A DNA stretch of 20,803 nt from a bacterium (lineage in GTDB: Bacteria > ARS69): positions 1-20,803 of the forward strand of contig JALGZO010000614.1 of NCBI GenBank assembly GCA_025774865.1, in the 5' to 3' direction. Each line of letters opens with the position of its first letter. Position 1 is the stretch's first letter. Position numbers and translations under genes: made by a program. This document shows, one piece after another, positions 12,422 through 19,837 of the stretch. Under the pieces are notes generated by a model. The model worked only from the letters and a program-made list of their open reading frames with translations. It was not told where the DNA came from and ran no database searches.

Positions 12422-14641
12422 CTAGGCTCGATCTTCCGAGACCGACTCGATCTTCCCGGCGAGACGGGGAGCGAGTGTCGAGCGTCGACCGCGGGAGCGG
12501 CCGGTCCGCAGCGCCAGTGCGAGCGCGCGACGGCTCCCGACCAGCACGACGCCCTTTCGCGCGCGAGTGATCGCCGTATAGAACAGAGGACGCTCGAGGA
12601 GGATTGCGTGCTGCGTCGTCAGCGGGAAAACGACCCAGTCGTACTCCGATCCTTGCGACTTGTGAACGGTGATGGCGTAAGCCAGTGAAACTTGGTCCCA
12701 CTCGGACGCCGGCAGATTCGCGAGCGTGTCGAAACGGACGTTCAGTTCCCGACCGTCAGGGGAGATCGAATCGACGTGTCCTATCTCTCCGTTGAAGACG
12801 TTTCGCCGGTAGTCATTCCGAAGCTGGATCACGCGATCGCGGACGCGGAAGCGTCGCACCCCCGAGCGCACTTCGGGACCACCCGGATTCAGGCTCTCTT
12901 GCAAGAGCGCGTTGAGAGCGTCGGCCCCCGCCTCCCCTTTGTACATCGGCACGAGAACCTGGACGTCCCGAAGCGGGTCGACGCCACTCACGGCCGGAAG
13001 GAACTCCCGCACGAGGCGCCGGATCTCGGACGCGATCTCGGCGGGTTCCTGACTCTCGACGAACGCGAAGTCGCCTTCCCCCGGCGCGACCATCTCGGGC
13101 ATCTCGCCGGCGAGGACCCGGTGCGCGTTCCGCACGATGCCGCTCCGTTCATCCTGCCGAAAGATCTGCGCCAGCCGCGCCGTCGGGACGACTTTGCTTC
13201 CGATGAGATCCCGCAAGACCTCGCCGGGACCGACCGAGGGAAGTTGATCCGCGTCGCCGACGAGCACGAGCCGAGCGTGACGCGGAACCGCGGCGAGCAG
13301 GATTTCGAACAGACGCAGGTCGATCATCGAGGACTCGTCCACGAGAATGACATCCGCCTCGACGGGGTTGGAGGCGTCGCGCCCGAACGCCCCGGTCGAG
13401 GGGTCGAAGCCGAGCAGGCGGTGCAGAGTGGCGGCCTCGCGGCCGGCCGTCTCCGCGAGCCGGCGCGCGGCGCGCCCGGTGGGCGCCGCCAGCGCCAGGC
13501 GGAAGCCATGCACCTCGAACAGGTCGAGCAGGAACCGCGTCAGCATCGTCTTGCCGGTGCCGGGGCCGCCCGTGATGACGAGCGCGGATTGTTCGTGGGC
13601 GACCCGAAGCGCTCGAATCTGATCGTCCGAGAGCTCGATCCCCCGGCTCGCCTCGAGCTCGCGAAGCTCTCGTTCGTCGAAATGAAGCTCTCGCGCCCCG
13701 TCGGCGTCGTGCAATAGCTCGAGCAGGCGGCGCGCGGCCGAGACCTCTGCGCGGTGAAGACCAATCGTGTAGATCCGGTCCGACTCCTGGACGACGAGCC
13801 CACCGCGGACCGCCATCTCGATCCCCGCTTCGACGACCATCAGTTCGAGCTCGAGCAGGTCGGCGCTGCGGGCGGCGAGATCGTCGGCCGCCATGTAGAC
13901 GTCGCCAAGCTCGGCCGCTCGCCGCAGCGTGTGAACGATCCCCGCCTCCACGCGCGACGGATCCTCCCGGTCGATTCCGAGACTCCTCGCCAGAGCGTCG
14001 GCCCGGACGAATCCGATCCCCCAGATGTCGCGCGCAAGACGATACGGGTCGTCTCGCACCACCGTGAGGGCGGACTCGCCGTACCTCTCGTGAATCCGGG
14101 ACGCGTAGCGGGATCCGAGTCCGCTCTGCTCCAGAAGCAAGGTGAGATCACGGAGCTGAGCGTTCAGCCGGACGGCATCGACGAGTCCGCGCGCCTTCTC
14201 GGCCGAGATCCCGCGGACGCGAGTGAGGTCCTCCGGGTGACGTTCGATGACGTCGAGTGTCCCCTCGCCGAACTGGCTCACGATGCGCTCTGCGAGCTTC
14301 GGCCCGATACCGGGCGCGAGACCCGAGCCCAGGTAGCGCGTGATCGCTTCCGCGGTCCGGGGAGCCATCCGGGTGAGTGATGAAACCTCGAGTTGGCGAC
14401 CGAAACGGGGATGCTCCACCCAGCGTCCTTCGGCCCGGACGCGTTCCCCCACCGACAGCGGCGGCATCGGTCCGACGACGGCGAGGGTCCGTTCGTCCCC
14501 CTCCGGAGAGACTCGAAGAACGGTGTAGCCGGTCTCCTCGCTTCGAAAAGTGATACGCGAAACGGTTCCGATCAGCTCGTCAGCGCCATGGGGAGGGTCC
14601 GATCTCGAGAAGAGGCTTCGTTGGTCACCCGCTCGTGGCAC
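12422..14641 (-). CDS. recD2: RecD2-type ATP-dependent DNA helicase
   Basis: A superfamily 1B 5'-3' DNA helicase of the RecD2 (RecD/TraA) group, which acts without RecBC. From GTG 14641 it is 739 residues, within the family range. Domains in order: N-terminal ELIGTVSRITFRSEETGYTV OB-like region, helix-hairpin-helix repeats (GIGPKLAERI, VRGISAEKARGL), Walker A ITGGPGTGKTML at about 355, Walker B DVILVDESSMID, motif III LVLVGDADQLPSVG, motif IV LAQIFRQDERSG, the SH3-like DRVIQLRNDYRRNVFNGEIG, ITVHKSQGSEYDWV, and the C-terminal YTAITRARKGVVLVG. GTG 14641 has GGAGA at good spacing. An upstream in-frame GTG at 14794 would translate through the sigma gene's terminator and is rejected. It heads an operon with two membrane proteins and the DA1-like gene. 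Confidence 0.92.
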   Translation of the reverse strand: MPRAGDQRSLFSRSDPPHGADELIGTVSRITFRSEETGYTVLRVSPEGDERTLAVVGPMPPLSVGERVRAEGRWVEHPRFGRQLEVSSLTRMAPRTAEAITRYLGSGLAPGIGPKLAERIVSQFGEGTLDVIERHPEDLTRVRGISAEKARGLVDAVRLNAQLRDLTLLLEQSGLGSRYASRIHERYGESALTVVRDDPYRLARDIWGIGFVRADALARSLGIDREDPSRVEAGIVHTLRRAAELGDVYMAADDLAARSADLLELELMVVEAGIEMAVRGGLVVQESDRIYTIGLHRAEVSAARRLLELLHDADGARELHFDERELRELEASRGIELSDDQIRALRVAHEQSALVITGGPGTGKTMLTRFLLDLFEVHGFRLALAAPTGRAARRLAETAGREAATLHRLLGFDPSTGAFGRDASNPVEADVILVDESSMIDLRLFEILLAAVPRHARLVLVGDADQLPSVGPGEVLRDLIGSKVVPTARLAQIFRQDERSGIVRNAHRVLAGEMPEMVAPGEGDFAFVESQEPAEIASEIRRLVREFLPAVSGVDPLRDVQVLVPMYKGEAGADALNALLQESLNPGGPEVRSGVRRFRVRDRVIQLRNDYRRNVFNGEIGHVDSISPDGRELNVRFDTLANLPASEWDQVSLAYAITVHKSQGSEYDWVVFPLTTQHAILLERPLFYTAITRARKGVVLVGSRRALALALRTGRSRGRRSTLAPRLAGKIESVSEDRA

Positions 14642-14668
14642 GACGTTCTCCGGACGGAGTGTGACTCT

Positions 14669-14697
14669 GGGGTACCACGAGGTTGGAGAGGCGACAA
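14669..14697 (-). promoter_or_regulatory. Candidate sigma-70-type promoter for recD2 operon
   Basis: On the minus strand, TTGTCG (14697-14692), a 17-nt spacer and TACCCC (14674-14669). The match to consensus is modest, but the style resembles the cbs promoter (TTGACG/TACCCT). It lies just between the upstream terminator and the GTG at 14641, leaving a leader of about 20 nt. Confidence 0.45.
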
Positions 14698-14730
14698 GCC
14701 GTGCGGCGGAGCGCACCTGGCGGAGGGTAC

Positions 14731-14789
14731 CTGAAGAAGGCCCCCCGAGCGGCAGCACGGGGGGCCTCGATCCCCTCTCGAGGAGGGGA
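14731..14789 (-). terminator. Tandem-hairpin intrinsic terminator of the sigma factor gene
   Basis: Reading the minus strand after the stop at 14807, a first hairpin (arms TCCCCTC/GAGGGGA, 14789-14771) is followed by a second with an 8-bp all-GC stem (GGCCCCCC/GGGGGGCC, 14766-14739, 12-nt loop) and the tail TTCTTC (14738-14733). The second hairpin with its pyrimidine tail is a good Rho-independent terminator and separates the sigma gene from recD2. Confidence 0.85.
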
Positions 14790-14806
14790 CTCACACGACT
14801 CGCGGC

Positions 14807-15802
14807 TCAGTTCTCGGGCACCGGATCGGCGCTCGACGCGAGCTTTCGGAGCTTCAGCAAGCACCGCTTTTCGATCTGGCGAATGCGCTCGCGGGTGACC
14901 CCGATCTTCTTGCCGGTCTCCTCCAGAGACAGTGGTTCCTGCCCGTCGAGACCGAATCGGAAGTTCAGGATGCGGCGCTCGCGCTCGTCCAGGTGCGTCA
15001 AGAGCTCGGTCACCCGACGCCGAGTGAGCGAAGCCTCCGCGTTGTCGAACGGGGACTTCTGACGCTGGTCCGGCACGAGATCATAGAGCGTGGTCTGCGC
15101 CTCATCGCCGATCGGCGTATCCATGGATAAGGTGCTCCGCGTCAGTCGGGCGAGGTTCGTGACCTTTTCGACTGGGAGCTGGAGCTCCTTCGATACGTCG
15201 TCGATCGTATGTCGCCCGTCCTTCTTCTGGGCGAGCGCACGCTCGGTCTGGAGGTACTTCCGCAGACTCGCGATCACGTTTGCCGGAATCCGAACGGTGC
15301 GACTGTGATTGGCGAGCGCGCGCGTGATCGATTGGCGGATCCACTTCGATCCGTAGGTCGAGAAACGGAAGCCGAGGTCCACGTTGAAGTACTCCGCCGC
15401 TTTGATCAGCCCGAGGTTGCCCTCTCCGATCAAGTCGGTGAAGGACAGTCCCATTCCCTGGTAGCGGCGGGCGATCGAAACCACCAGGCGCAAGTTGGCA
15501 GCGATCAGCCTATCCATGGCGCGAGCGTTCCCCGCCTTCGCCGCCGTTGCCAGTTCCACCTCTTGTTCGCGGGTCAGTAACTTGATCTTGCTGATGGCGG
15601 CCAGATAGACCCCCAACGTATCCCGGGAGCGGGACGGTTTCGCGGAGCCCTTCGGACTCTTCTTCGCCCGTGTCGCGGACGAAGTCGATCGGTCCGGATA
15701 CGTGGTCTCCACGGCGTTCTCCCGTGAATCCAGCATTTCCAACTCTCCTCTGAGAAACGTCCGGCTCAGTTCTCCGAGGTCTTCCGAAACCCAGAGGTTC
15801 AT
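14807..15802 (-). CDS. RNA polymerase sigma factor, RpoD/RpoS family (probable group 2, alternative)
   Basis: A 331-residue sigma-70-family factor. Residues 1-60 are a polar, basic leader with no region 1.1. Region 1.2 is DTLGVYLAAISKIKLLTREQE (61-81, starting DTLGVYLA). Region 2 has RLIAANLRLVVSIARRY and DLIGEGNLGLIKAAEYF, and regions 2.3-2.4 have GFRFSTYGSKWIRQSITRA (144-162). Region 3 follows, and region 4.2 is LSLEETGKKIGVTRERIRQI (291-310). The lack of region 1.1 and a region 2.4 that differs from the usual TYATWWIRQ argue for an alternative, RpoS-like factor rather than the primary sigma. The ATG at 15802 has GGGAGG at ideal spacing; the open frame upstream to 16117 is non-coding leader. 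It has its own terminator, and a sigma-54-type promoter lies about 90 nt upstream. Confidence 0.92.
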   Translation of the reverse strand: MNLWVSEDLGELSRTFLRGELEMLDSRENAVETTYPDRSTSSATRAKKSPKGSAKPSRSRDTLGVYLAAISKIKLLTREQEVELATAAKAGNARAMDRLIAANLRLVVSIARRYQGMGLSFTDLIGEGNLGLIKAAEYFNVDLGFRFSTYGSKWIRQSITRALANHSRTVRIPANVIASLRKYLQTERALAQKKDGRHTIDDVSKELQLPVEKVTNLARLTRSTLSMDTPIGDEAQTTLYDLVPDQRQKSPFDNAEASLTRRRVTELLTHLDERERRILNFRFGLDGQEPLSLEETGKKIGVTRERIRQIEKRCLLKLRKLASSADPVPEN

Positions 15803-15902
15803 GGCGGCCTCCCTTCGTCCGACTCGCGACCGGTGAAGGTGGGGAAGTGGCCGACATCGATTCGCTTCGACCCCTCGATGTCTCGCCGTCGTGTAAAAGC
15901 CA

Positions 15903-15919
15903 TGCAGGGCTTGTGCCAG
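15903..15919 (-). promoter_or_regulatory. Sigma-54 (-24/-12) promoter for the sigma factor gene
   Basis: The minus strand reads CTGGCACAAGCCCTGCA. Against the RpoN consensus YTGGCACGrNNNTTGCW it keeps CTGGCAC, the invariant GG and GC at the exact spacing, and the final TGCA; two of the non-invariant positions differ. Predicted transcription start is near 15892, giving a leader of about 90 nt. The neighbouring sigma-54 activator gene supports it. Confidence 0.7.
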
Positions 15920-16238
15920 CTTTGCCAATCCTCCCGCCACGTGCGCAAGACCTGCCAACTTGTTGCAGGCCAAGGGATTCGAGCGGCGGGTCCTGCAGGC
16001 CACATCGGGCGGGGGCGTGCCGGCCCGTCGCCAGAGGCGCTGTGCGCTGCGCACGGCCTTTACACTGGGCTGGACGATCGTGGAACCCGTTGAGGGGCAG
16101 CCACATGGAGCTGACACGAGGGTTTACACTTACAGGGGGGCGATCTGCGCACTAGGTACTCATCCGGGAAACCCGAAGTAGCTCACTGTGGGGCTTTCGT
16201 CGGCTCGCTTCGGTCGAAGTGCTCGGGGGGATGCGCGA
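15920..16238. promoter_or_regulatory. Upstream control region between activator and sigma factor genes
   Basis: About 320 bp without a credible gene. It holds possible regulator sites: an imperfect 19-bp dyad CCTGCCAACTTGTTGCAGG (15951-15969), CCTGCAGG (15992-15999) and the palindrome GTGCGC-T-GCGCAC (16042-16054). It also has two copies of TTTACACT (16059-16066, 16123-16130), whose inverse GTGTAAA recurs at 15891-15897. The first sites fall about 60-160 bp upstream of the predicted sigma-54 start, where activator sites usually lie. No terminator with a U-tract was found after the activator gene. Confidence 0.4.
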
Positions 16239-19200
16239 CTAGAGGTCGATCGAGTAACGCGAGATCTTGTTGAGCAGTCCTCGACGGCTGATTCCCAGAA
16301 GCTTCGCCGCATGGGACCGGTTGCCCGAGGTCTTGCGAAGAGCTTGCTCCACCAGGTCCCGCTCGATCCTCTCGATCATGTCGGGCATCTTCTGGTCCGT
16401 GCGCAGCGACAGGCTCGGGGGAGCCTCGTCTTCCCGGAGCTCCGGAGAAAGAGCGGTCACGCCGATGGTGACGCCGTCTTCCGCCATCGCGACGGCGCGT
16501 TCCACCTCGTGTCGGAGGTCACGCACGTTTCCGGGCCAGGAGTGGGCGACGAGACGATTCATGGCCTCGTGCGTGAACCCGGCGATCCTCTTGGAGCTCT
16601 GTTCCGCGAAGTGCGCCAGGAAGTGCTCGGCCAGAAGCGGCACGTCTTCCTTTCGCTCCCGCAGCGGCGGAATCTCGATCGAGATCACGCGTAGACGATA
16701 GTAGAGATCCTTCAGGAAGGCCCCACTCTCCACGCGATCCTTGAGCGACCGGTTCGACGCGCAGATGATCCGGACGTCGATCTTCTGAGCCTGATTCGCT
16801 CCGACCGGCTTGATCTCGCCCTGGTCCACCACGCGGAGTAACCGCTCCTGGAAGTTCGTCGTGGTCTTGTCGATCTCGTCGAGGAAGATGGTCCCTCCAT
16901 CCGCCTTTTCGAAGAGACCGATCTTGTCCGACTTCGCGTCGGTGAACGCGCCTCGGATGTGACCGAACAACTCGCTCTCGAGCACGTCGCGCGAGAGTGC
17001 CGCACAGTTCACAACGACGAGCGAACGATCCCGGCGCGTCGAGACGGCGTGCGTCGCGCGCGCCAGCAGCTCTTTGCCCGTGCCGGTCTCGCCCTCGAGC
17101 AGCACGGTCGTGGTGCTCTCCTTGAGGCGATCGATGAGATCGATGATCTCGAGAAGCCGACGGTTCTGCGTGATGATGCCTTCGAATCCGGTGCGGCTCG
17201 TGAGCTTGCGTCGCAGACGGAGGTTCTCGCTCCGGACGGCTTCGAGACGCATCTCCTGCACCGCCATCGCGGCCGCCGTGGCGAACGCCACGAGAAAGTC
17301 GAGCTCCGGCTGACGGAAGTAGCCATCCTCCGAACACATATCGACCCAGATTCCACCGAGCATCTCCTCTTCCGAGAAGAGCGGCATGAACACGACCGAG
17401 CCGAGACTCTCGAGCCCCGGACTCTCCATCTTGGCGAAGCGCGGATCGCGCGCGGGCGACGTGGAGACGAGCGGCTTCGGACCGAAGTCTCGGTCCGCCT
17501 TGAGCACGGAGATCAACCGCAACACTTCGGCCGCTTCCTTCTGGGACATGCCGCTTCCCGGCGCGAGCTGAAGCTCCGAGGTTCCCGCTGACAACAGGAA
17601 GAGGCCGCAACGATCCGCCCGCATCCGCTCCTCGAGCACCCTCTCCACCGCGCGGACACTCTGAGCACTGTCCGGCGCCTGCCGAATGAGGGCGACCGCC
17701 GCGTTGAGCGCGGCGAGCTCGTTGCTCTCGGAGAGCGACGTCTCCGCCAGAAGACGATCGATGTCGCGATGGACCTCGCGAAGAGCCTCTTGATCCTCGT
17801 CGTTACCCACTCGCTCGAGCAGATCGATCGCCGCCTCGAGGTGGCTGCGGGCTTCCCCGGTGGGGTGGTCACAGACCATCTCGAGCTTCGCCGCGAGCAG
17901 ATACGCGTGCCCGGCCTCGTACTCGGCGCCGATCATCTCGAAGGTCTCACGCGCCTCCTCGAGCTGCCGGGCCGCCCGGTCCAGGTCGACGATGTTCTCG
18001 ATGCAGAATGCCGCATACTCGAGCCGCGTGACCGCGAGCTCGAAGGGCGAGCTACAGCGCCGGTGGCTCGCGACCGCCCGCCGGTACGTCTGCGCCGCGT
18101 TCACGATATCGCCGGCCGCCCCGTCGAGCCGCGCGCGAATCCGCAAGAGAATGCCCTTCTCGAACTCCTCATTCATCTGCTCCGAGATCGCGAACGCACG
18201 CTCGAGGCATTGCCCCGCCTGGGCGAGGTTCCCGAGGGACGAATCCAGGTCGGCCAGGCGGCGCAGGGCCTCGAGCACCAGGTCCCCGTGGGGCGCGAGC
18301 TCCTCGCCGCCGGTGAGAGCCTCGTGGTAGAGGTCGCGGGCTTCGTCGTAGCACTCGCTCGAGAACGCGAGATCGCCCTGGAACTCCTTGACCAACACGA
18401 GCTCGCGGGCCTCGCCGAGCTCCTCGACGATCACTCGAGCCTTCTCGTACTGCCGGCCCGCCTCATCCCAGTCGCGCTTGTGGCGGTAGTAGTTCCCGAG
18501 ATTGAGTGAGACGTTCGCGACCTCCCACTGGTTCCCGATCCCCTCGAGCAGTCGCCCCGCCCGCTCCCAGTGGTCGCGTGCCTCTTCCCACTCGCCCAGC
18601 TTGAACTCGTAGATCCCGAGGTTCGTGAGGTAGATGCCGACGTAGTACGTCTCGCCGATGTCCTCGGCGATCTTCAGTGCGGCGCGCGCGTGCCGCGTGG
18701 CACTGTCCAGGTTGCCGCGGTTCTTCTCCATCAATCCGAGGTTGTTCAGGCAGCTTCCCATGCCCGCGCGGTCGCCCACCATGCGATAGCCGGCGAGTGC
18801 GGCCTCGAGAGACTGACTCGCAGCGTCCCAATCGCCGCGACGCATCGCCACGACCCCGAAGCTCTGCTGGGCCCTTGCGAGCTCGCTCGCGGCCGCGGGG
18901 TCGAGGATCCGCTCGGTGACTTCTCGCAGGCAATCGTCGGCCTGCGCATAGTCTCCGAGCCGGATCAGGGCGAACGCGCGCTCGTTCAAGATGCGACAGC
19001 GGGCTAGCGGCGTGCTTTCGGCCGGAAGGTGGGTGAGCGCGGCGTCGAGAAGCTGTACGGCCGCGGTGTAGTCGCCGGTCTGGCCCCGGCACCGAGCCAT
19101 CTTGAGGAGCACTTCGGAGAGCATTCCCGAGGACTCACGAGCCTTCTCGGCGATGCGGAGAATCTGCTCGTAGTACTCGAGCGCGGAGGAATATTCGCCG

Positions 19201-19331
19201 GCGGACATGCTGAACTCGGCGAGCTGATCCAGGAGTCCGACGTCGTCCCCGTTACTTGGGGCTGACCCGACCTCGGGAGTCATGCCGCCGGTGGCCTTTT
19301 CGTCGAGCGGCTTATCGTGGGGACCCGCCAT
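16239..19331 (-). CDS. Sigma-54-dependent activator with TPR, GAF, AAA+ and Fis-type HTH domains
   Basis: A 1030-residue enhancer-binding protein. Residues 35-500 are a long array of TPR-like helical repeats (for example NNLGLMEKNRGNLDSATRHA and NLGNYYRHKRDWDEAGRQY). Residues 520-690 resemble a GAF sensor. The AAA+ domain has Walker A LEGETGTGKE (about 745-754), ELFGHIRGAFTDA with the sigma-54 contact loop at about 793-798, Walker B GGTIFLDEID (about 811-820) and LYYRLRV. The Fis-type HTH is at the end (NRSHAAKLLGISRRGLLNKI). The loop reads GAFTDA, not GAFTGA. No receiver domain or histidine-kinase partner is present, so signals probably reach it through the TPR or GAF parts. ATG 19331 has AGGTGG upstream and is preferred over GTG 19346. 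It lies directly upstream of the sigma factor gene on the same strand. Confidence 0.92.
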   Translation of the reverse strand: MAGPHDKPLDEKATGGMTPEVGSAPSNGDDVGLLDQLAEFSMSAGEYSSALEYYEQILRIAEKARESSGMLSEVLLKMARCRGQTGDYTAAVQLLDAALTHLPAESTPLARCRILNERAFALIRLGDYAQADDCLREVTERILDPAAASELARAQQSFGVVAMRRGDWDAASQSLEAALAGYRMVGDRAGMGSCLNNLGLMEKNRGNLDSATRHARAALKIAEDIGETYYVGIYLTNLGIYEFKLGEWEEARDHWERAGRLLEGIGNQWEVANVSLNLGNYYRHKRDWDEAGRQYEKARVIVEELGEARELVLVKEFQGDLAFSSECYDEARDLYHEALTGGEELAPHGDLVLEALRRLADLDSSLGNLAQAGQCLERAFAISEQMNEEFEKGILLRIRARLDGAAGDIVNAAQTYRRAVASHRRCSSPFELAVTRLEYAAFCIENIVDLDRAARQLEEARETFEMIGAEYEAGHAYLLAAKLEMVCDHPTGEARSHLEAAIDLLERVGNDEDQEALREVHRDIDRLLAETSLSESNELAALNAAVALIRQAPDSAQSVRAVERVLEERMRADRCGLFLLSAGTSELQLAPGSGMSQKEAAEVLRLISVLKADRDFGPKPLVSTSPARDPRFAKMESPGLESLGSVVFMPLFSEEEMLGGIWVDMCSEDGYFRQPELDFLVAFATAAAMAVQEMRLEAVRSENLRLRRKLTSRTGFEGIITQNRRLLEIIDLIDRLKESTTTVLLEGETGTGKELLARATHAVSTRRDRSLVVVNCAALSRDVLESELFGHIRGAFTDAKSDKIGLFEKADGGTIFLDEIDKTTTNFQERLLRVVDQGEIKPVGANQAQKIDVRIICASNRSLKDRVESGAFLKDLYYRLRVISIEIPPLRERKEDVPLLAEHFLAHFAEQSSKRIAGFTHEAMNRLVAHSWPGNVRDLRHEVERAVAMAEDGVTIGVTALSPELREDEAPPSLSLRTDQKMPDMIERIERDLVEQALRKTSGNRSHAAKLLGISRRGLLNKISRYSIDL

Positions 19332-19452
19332 TCCGTCCACCTTCACCAGCTGGTAACTAACTTCACCCTACGATACGTACGCTCCCCCCGGTTTGGGACG
19401 GATGCGCTGAGACTAGTCGTGAGCGATTCTCGCCTCGCGAGACCTCGTGAGA

Positions 19453-19734
19453 CTACGGACCGAAGACCCGCACCAGCCGAAGGTACGTCCTCAGGACCCG
19501 CAGCCACCGCTTCTGGCTCGCGTCATCGATTGCTCTCGAGGATCCCACCGCCGCCGCCCCCTGACCCTTCACGTCGGGATCGACCCGGACGTCCGAATGC
19601 GTCCGCTCGAACGTCACCGATGGAATATCGGGATCGCCGTTGTCGGTGTCTCGGTCCGGGCCGGCGAGAACGTTCCCCGCCGCCAAGCCGATCGCCACGA
19701 GAGCCACCGCGAGAATCTGGAAGGCCTTGAACAT
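19453..19734 (-). CDS. Small secreted protein, function unknown
   Basis: 93 residues with a clear signal peptide (MFKAFQILAVALVAIGLAAGNVLAG, split as MFKAFQILAVALVA and IGLAAGNVLAG) and likely cleavage after an Ala near residue 24. The mature part is short, charged and Asp-rich at first (PDRDTDNGDPD), with a basic C-terminus (KRWLRVLRTYLRLVRV) that could form an amphipathic helix. No family recognised. ATG 19734 has GGAGA six bases upstream. It is preceded by a near-consensus promoter and a leader hairpin, so it is probably transcribed independently and well. The sigma-54 activator gene starts 121 nt downstream on the same strand; read-through into it is possible. Confidence 0.7.
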   Translation of the reverse strand: MFKAFQILAVALVAIGLAAGNVLAGPDRDTDNGDPDIPSVTFERTHSDVRVDPDVKGQGAAAVGSSRAIDDASQKRWLRVLRTYLRLVRVFGP

Positions 19735-19771
19735 CCGATTCTCCGCCAATACGCCGCTGAAAAACTCCATC

Positions 19772-19801
19772 GTCCGGGAACCGAGTTCACAGCTCCCGGA
19801 C
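19772..19801 (-). promoter_or_regulatory. Leader hairpin at the predicted mRNA 5' end
   Basis: Arms GTCCGGGA (19801-19794) and TCCCGGAC (19779-19772) form a perfect 8-bp stem with a 14-nt loop. It begins within a base or two of the transcription start predicted from the promoter. A run of five T follows seven bases later. It could be a 5' stabilising stem, an operator or a weak attenuator. Confidence 0.5.
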
Positions 19802-19808
19802 AAACCTC

Positions 19809-19837
19809 ATTCTAGGCACAGGAACGCCGGACGTCAA
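19809..19837 (-). promoter_or_regulatory. Strong sigma-70-type promoter for the small secreted protein gene
   Basis: Minus strand TTGACG (19837-19832), exactly 17 nt, then TAGAAT (19814-19809). Both hexamers match consensus 5/6. The -35 overlaps the last codons of the upstream membrane-protein gene. Predicted transcription start is near 19802, giving a 68-nt leader. Confidence 0.75.

Follow-up and report, generated by a model that had tools for sequence, protein, structure and literature searches.

A predicted RpoN-dependent switch linking a TPR-GAF sigma-54 activator to an alternative sigma factor gene, conserved in five genera of one bacterial family

Results

A sigma-54 activator and a sigma factor gene in one conserved locus

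Contig JALGZO010000614.1 of the ARS69 bacterial assembly GCA_025774865.1 was analyzed over positions 1 to 20,803, and this 20,803-nucleotide stretch is called the window throughout. It carries the gene of a sigma-54 activator followed, on the minus strand, by the gene of an alternative sigma factor. Very probably, the two genes form a self-contained, RpoN-dependent switch: the activator would bind its own enhancer and drive sigma-54 transcription of the sigma factor gene. This reading comes from a sequence comparison of five genomes of the phylum, the source genome among them, one per genus and all from one family. The minus-strand order from 5' to 3' is a small exported-protein gene, the activator gene, a 436-bp intergenic region, the sigma factor gene, and a recD2-type helicase gene. 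The best activator match lies directly 5' of the best sigma factor match in all five genomes, and the order activator, sigma factor, recD2 is kept in each genus. See Table 1 for the coordinates of all features.

An earlier note on this DNA, made from the sequence of the window alone, had described a sigma-54 activator gene directly upstream of an RpoD/RpoS-family sigma gene. Pfam domains and gene order agree with this description. The two genes are indeed adjacent, but "directly" needs qualifying, as the 436 bp between them hold a promoter and further conserved sites. The note had also proposed searching the genome for rpoN and testing the promoter element and gene order for conservation. The source genome has a single rpoN with its activator-interacting (AID), core-binding (CBD), and DNA-binding (DBD) domains all present, rpoN was found in all four relatives, and both the GG/GC element and the gene order are retained in all five genera.

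A conserved -24/-12 element precedes the sigma factor gene

The leader of the sigma factor gene contains the 17-mer CTGGCACAAGCCCTGCA (minus strand, window positions 15903-15919), with GG and GC at the exact -24/-12 spacing, as the earlier note had reported. Compared with TGGCAC-N5-TTGC it deviates at a single position, and no other site in the window comes this close; when up to two mismatches are tolerated, the number of sites is what chance predicts (11 observed, 11 expected). The published sigma-54 consensus is mrNrYTGGCACG-N4-TTGCWNNw (PMC2725144). The corresponding elements of the five genomes are TGGCACAAGCCCTGCA, TGGCACGAGCCCTGCA, TGGCACAATGCCTGCA, TGGCACGCTCCATGCG, and TGGCATGCCCCCTGCA. 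Nine of their 16 columns are invariant, whereas 200,000 random placements gave a maximum of 3 and never reached 9.

We also compared these sites with dinucleotide shuffles of the region between the activator and sigma factor genes. An equal or better site appeared in 3 of 2000 shuffles for the source genome, and the counts of equal sites for the regions of the five genomes were 3, 5, 3, 36, and 62 of 2000. A fair match can occur by chance in a single sequence, and the sites of the last two genomes are not very rare. It is nevertheless highly improbable that the element is accidental and that the sigma factor gene owes its transcription to read-through from the activator gene or to an unrecognized promoter, as the element lies 101-112 nt from the sigma start codon (28 nt in one genus) across five genera, far beyond random placement. 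Because the element is conserved in five genera, we reject a chance origin of the match. A second GG/GC match in the intergenic region was discarded for its poor score and three mismatches. No sigma-70-type promoter was seen upstream of the sigma factor gene in this stretch of the window; the earlier note had listed a transcription start elsewhere, with a sigma-70-type -10, as evidence to the contrary.

Conserved dyads lie upstream of the promoter

Alignment of the intergenic regions revealed conserved dyads of the form GTGTRAA-N5-TKYSCAC. They are candidate sites for an enhancer-binding protein, placed upstream of the predicted target promoter at near-fixed spacing. The dyad nearest the promoter (P) has 9 invariant columns of 19, with a maximum of 4 in 200,000 random placements. 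Four genera have it 146-150 bp upstream of the promoter; in the remaining genus the distance is 127 bp, shorter by roughly two turns of the helix.

The loci were scored with leave-one-out weight matrices, each trained on four genomes without the one being scored. In four genomes no site of the locus scored higher than P; in G003, P ranked third, and the two sites ahead of it lie 5' of the activator gene. The same matrices recovered a site 39 bp 5' of the activator start in three genomes. The strict dyad motif has eight matches in the five whole genomes: six fall between the activator and sigma factor genes, one lies 5' of the activator gene in G003, and one is elsewhere. The last of these (L138) was rejected as a further activator target, with no sigma-54 element of at least 10/12 nearby. 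Allowing one mismatch in the dyad gave 27 true and 12 control counts, too noisy for naming other targets.

Since the motif is restricted to the surroundings of the activator gene and the adjacent sigma-54 promoter, the dyads are most simply read as putative binding sites of the neighboring activator. The choice of activator is not forced, given about 30 sigma-54 activator-like matches in the source genome. Even if the -24/-12 element is a real sigma-54 promoter, another of these proteins could be the one that uses the dyads and activates it, with the TPR-GAF activator acting elsewhere. We regard this as improbable, as the strict dyad is almost confined, across five genera, to the surroundings of the TPR-GAF activator gene and the adjacent sigma factor gene, and the two genes stay adjacent in all five.

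Table 1. Features of the locus and their positions in the window
Feature	Position	Strand	Description	Basis or conservation
recD2-type helicase gene	12422..14794	-	Directly 3' of the sigma factor gene	Pfam HHH_RecD2, OB_YrrC
Alternative sigma factor gene	14807..15802	-	331 aa	Pfam Sigma70 r1.2, r2, r3, r4
Predicted sigma-54 transcription start	15892	-	~90 nt 5' of the sigma start codon	Inferred from -12 spacing
Sigma-54 -24/-12 promoter element	15903..15918	-	TGGCACAAGCCCTGCA	In 5/5 genera
Proximal enhancer-like dyad (P)	16047..16065	-	GTGTAAAGGCCGTGCGCAG; center near -164 from predicted start	Alignment, weight matrices
Middle dyad (M)	16111..16129	-	GTGTAAACCCTCGTGTCAG; 64 bp from P, further upstream	Spacing in 5/5 genomes
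Distal dyad (D)	16145..16163	-	ATGAGTACCTAGTGCGCAG; 97-99 bp from P across genomes	Weak in source genome
Sigma-54 activator gene	16239..19331	-	1030 aa; TPR (~12 repeats)-GAF-AAA+-Fis HTH; GAFTDA loop	Pfam
Activator-proximal dyad copy	19350..19368	-	GGGTGAAGTTAGTTACCAG; 37 bp 5' of activator start	Weaker score than relatives' copies
Small exported-protein gene	19453..19734	-	93 aa; signal-peptide-like N terminus, GDPDIP motif, amphipathic C terminus	Adjoins activator gene in 5/5
Leader hairpin	19770..19803	-	Before small exported-protein gene	Hairpin also in relatives' leaders; T-run not conserved
Sigma-70-type promoter	19809..19837	-	TTGACG-N17-TAGAAT, for small gene, probably activator too	TTGACG and -10-like box in 5/5

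The activator has an N-terminal TPR region and a GAF domain

Pfam identified TPR, GAF, Sigma54_activat (PF00158, E 1.7e-61), and HTH_8 (PF02954, E 5.6e-13) domains in the activator, in keeping with the earlier description of a TPR-GAF protein rather than a two-component response regulator. Its counterparts in the four other genera are 53-67% identical, and the AAA+ and helix-turn-helix core is nearly invariant among the five. An AlphaFold2 model built from the five sequences predicts 24 TPR-like helices, or about 12 TPRs, over residues 27-508; the model is of moderate quality, with a mean predicted local distance difference test (pLDDT) score of 70 and a five-row alignment. The top 50 results of a structure search with this model include ordinary sigma-54 activators, as expected. 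Part of the TPR superhelix resembles the peptide-binding LGN/Pins repeats in sequence. Literature searches, confined to open-access papers, turned up no TPR-type enhancer-binding protein.

The target is a group 2-type sigma factor

Pfam regions 1.2, 2, 3, and 4 of the sigma factor all score over the cut-off, and region 1.1 is unmatched. The nearest NCBIfam models are RpoS and RpoD, both under their equivalog cut-offs. With these two models nearest but below equivalog level and no match to region 1.1, the protein is, as judged from its sequence, of the group 2 (RpoD/RpoS-like) type. Its best matches in the four other genera show 62-76% identity. The motifs WIRQSITR and VTRERIRQIE are present and kept in the relatives, and we take regions 2.4 and 4.2 to be RpoD-like.

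A longer reading frame would place the -24/-12 element within the coding region. We disfavor it because the MNLW/MNPW start is conserved in four genera, together with a purine-rich stretch 5' of it, and because the sole upstream in-frame start in G002 falls inside the element. The leader of the sigma factor gene also contains an ATGYCGG motif in four of five genera, 55-60 nt 5' of the start codon (window about 15840-15860, minus strand); its frame relative to the sigma gene is inconsistent.

In each of the five genera, recD2 comes next after the sigma factor gene and points the same way (junction at window positions 14794-14807). From this arrangement, recD2 may be co-transcribed with the sigma factor gene and hence be part of the output of the switch.

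A sigma-70-type promoter and a small exported-protein gene precede the activator gene

No sigma-54 promoter above 9/12 was found 5' of the small gene or of the activator gene; a sigma-70-type promoter is found there instead. The small gene and the activator gene are probably transcribed from this conserved TTGACG-N17-TAGAAT sequence. Given a conserved promoter of this type, the activator seems to be supplied in a housekeeping manner, and regulation would be expected to act on its activity. A hairpin lies directly after this promoter; four of the five genomes have TGTGAA in its loop region, and it could be a 5' stabilizer, an attenuator, or an operator. A dyad-like site in the same leader overlaps the RNA hairpin and so was not counted as an activator site. 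Rfam returned no match across 16 loci.

A profile of the small protein gave strong matches once per genome in the five genomes, always at this locus. Signal peptides were called here by a simple rule and not by SignalP. Furthermore, among the other TPR-type activators with upstream sequence, 10 of 15 are preceded by a small exported-protein gene, at L123, L125, L129, L130, L131, L133, L134, L135, and L194 (mostly with GDPDxP or GEPTDP) and at L132 (without the motif). Several of these loci look orthologous, which leaves perhaps four or five independent groups. Under the motif rule, such a gene precedes none of the 36 activators taken as controls, with the check for TPRs covering only part of these controls (L169 and L184 have long N-terminal parts); a motif-free signal-peptide rule gave two weak, unconvincing matches among them. 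Genome-wide, exported small open reading frames with GEPTDP all precede a TPR activator, with one exception, where the contig ends just downstream.

The pairing suggests a peptide or export-status input to the activator. An addition to the switch described above, and not a replacement for it, would be that the small exported protein contributes to the input. It could be a secreted signal peptide that the TPR domain reads, as in RRNPP systems, or it could monitor protein export. We regard such a role as possible but less probable than not. The small gene adjoins the activator gene in all five focal loci, the difference between 10 of 15 TPR activators and 0 of 36 controls points the same way, and so does the match of part of the TPR superhelix to peptide-binding repeats. 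Weighing on the other side are the N-terminal position of the TPRs in a protein twice the length of an RRNPP receptor, the five TPR activators with no small exported neighbor, and the chance that this neighbor is merely a co-regulated envelope protein. For the small protein, a role as export monitor or as co-regulated envelope protein is equally plausible. Broader still, and more doubtful, is the idea that this phylum has a family of TPR-type sigma-54 activators whose signals are small exported proteins with a G[DE]P motif and a hydrophobic C terminus. This would amount to peptide or export sensing outside the Firmicutes, which at the present locus would feed RpoN and then an alternative sigma factor.

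We also observed that many TPR-type sigma-54 activators of this phylum (L123, L125, L129-L135, L148, L194) have, immediately 5' of their genes, a gene for a small exported protein with G[DE]P[DT]xP and a hydrophobic C terminus. Those of the GEPTDP type (L129, L130, L135, L148) share the leader GCCGACATCC ... AGAAAGGCGG before the start codon, with no Rfam match.

Discussion

In the proposed switch, the activator would be made from the housekeeping-type promoter ahead of the small gene, and the signal would enter through its TPR-GAF part. Going by the mechanism of the family, it would bind the dyads between the activator and sigma factor genes, reach by DNA looping the sigma-54 holoenzyme bound to the -24/-12 element, and open the promoter using ATP. 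The sigma factor, with its RpoD-like promoter-contact regions retained, would then redirect RNA polymerase to its own regulon. From the activator-proximal dyad copy, the activator may also regulate itself, most likely as a repressor. The earlier note had suggested that this activator drives the sigma promoter, and the conserved dyads at the sigma promoter and just 5' of the activator start, as predicted binding sites, lend this indirect support.

Several points weigh against this reading. The dyad motif was derived from the alignment of the same regions that were later scored, and matches there are partly by construction; the activator-proximal copies played no part in its derivation. The activator-proximal and distal copies are weak in the source genome, and no clear activator-proximal copy was found in G001. 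The sigma-54 loop reads GAFTDA and not GAFTGA (GSFTDA in one relative); GAFTDA is listed among natural Desulfovibrio variants compatible with activation (PMC4641369). Finally, the conserved sites are drawn from a single lineage, the five genomes of one family, and several of these assemblies are incomplete or partly contaminated; that of the source genome has 785 contigs, a completeness of 92.65%, and a contamination of 8.3%.

In this locus a candidate enhancer, promoter, activator, and target sigma factor gene fall within about 4.5 kb and are kept in all five genera examined of a little-known, uncultured phylum, so that the predicted wiring can be read directly. To our knowledge, few RpoN-to-sigma cascades have been described. 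In Borrelia, Rrp2 and RpoN turn on rpoS from a -24/-12 promoter (PMC2940757, PMC11109971), and the title of Blevins 2009 (cited in PMC11109971) calls that system enhancer-independent. The two systems are alike in that an enhancer-binding protein and RpoN switch on, or here would switch on, an RpoS-type sigma gene. Unlike in Borrelia, the present activator is a TPR-GAF protein, lies adjacent to its predicted target, and is accompanied by a conserved array of candidate enhancer sites. The earlier note had drawn its contrast with Borrelia on the activator, and this difference stands, but the novelty was somewhat overstated, because the enhancer-binding proteins behind the HrpR/HrpS-RpoN-HrpL cascade are already not classical response regulators. 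HrpR and HrpS are not known to have a receiver domain, or a TPR or GAF sensor. In Pseudomonas syringae, they activate the gene of HrpL, an extracytoplasmic function (ECF) sigma factor, via RpoN (PMC7691447); the target here is instead of the group 2 type. In Geobacter, a sigma-54 promoter precedes an operon with the sigma-70-family gene fliA (PMC2725144). That cascade differs in its flagellar setting and its sigma-28 product, and has no TPR-GAF activator beside a group 2 sigma factor gene.

The pairing of the small gene with the activator gene recalls the RRNPP systems, where a small exported-protein gene also lies next to the gene of a TPR-containing transcription regulator (here 93 aa, in all five genera). 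RRNPP receptors are 250-500 aa long with C-terminal TPRs (PMC10075063), whereas the present protein is a 1030-aa AAA+ sigma-54 activator with N-terminal TPRs and falls outside the family in both size and TPR position. If the small exported protein were indeed the input, signals would feed into sigma-54 control by a new route, and a peptide-type regulator would exist outside the Firmicutes. Taken against these systems, the locus is, as read from its sequence, a case of the known RpoN-to-sigma logic in which the activator is built differently, the target lies next door, and an enhancer-like array is conserved.

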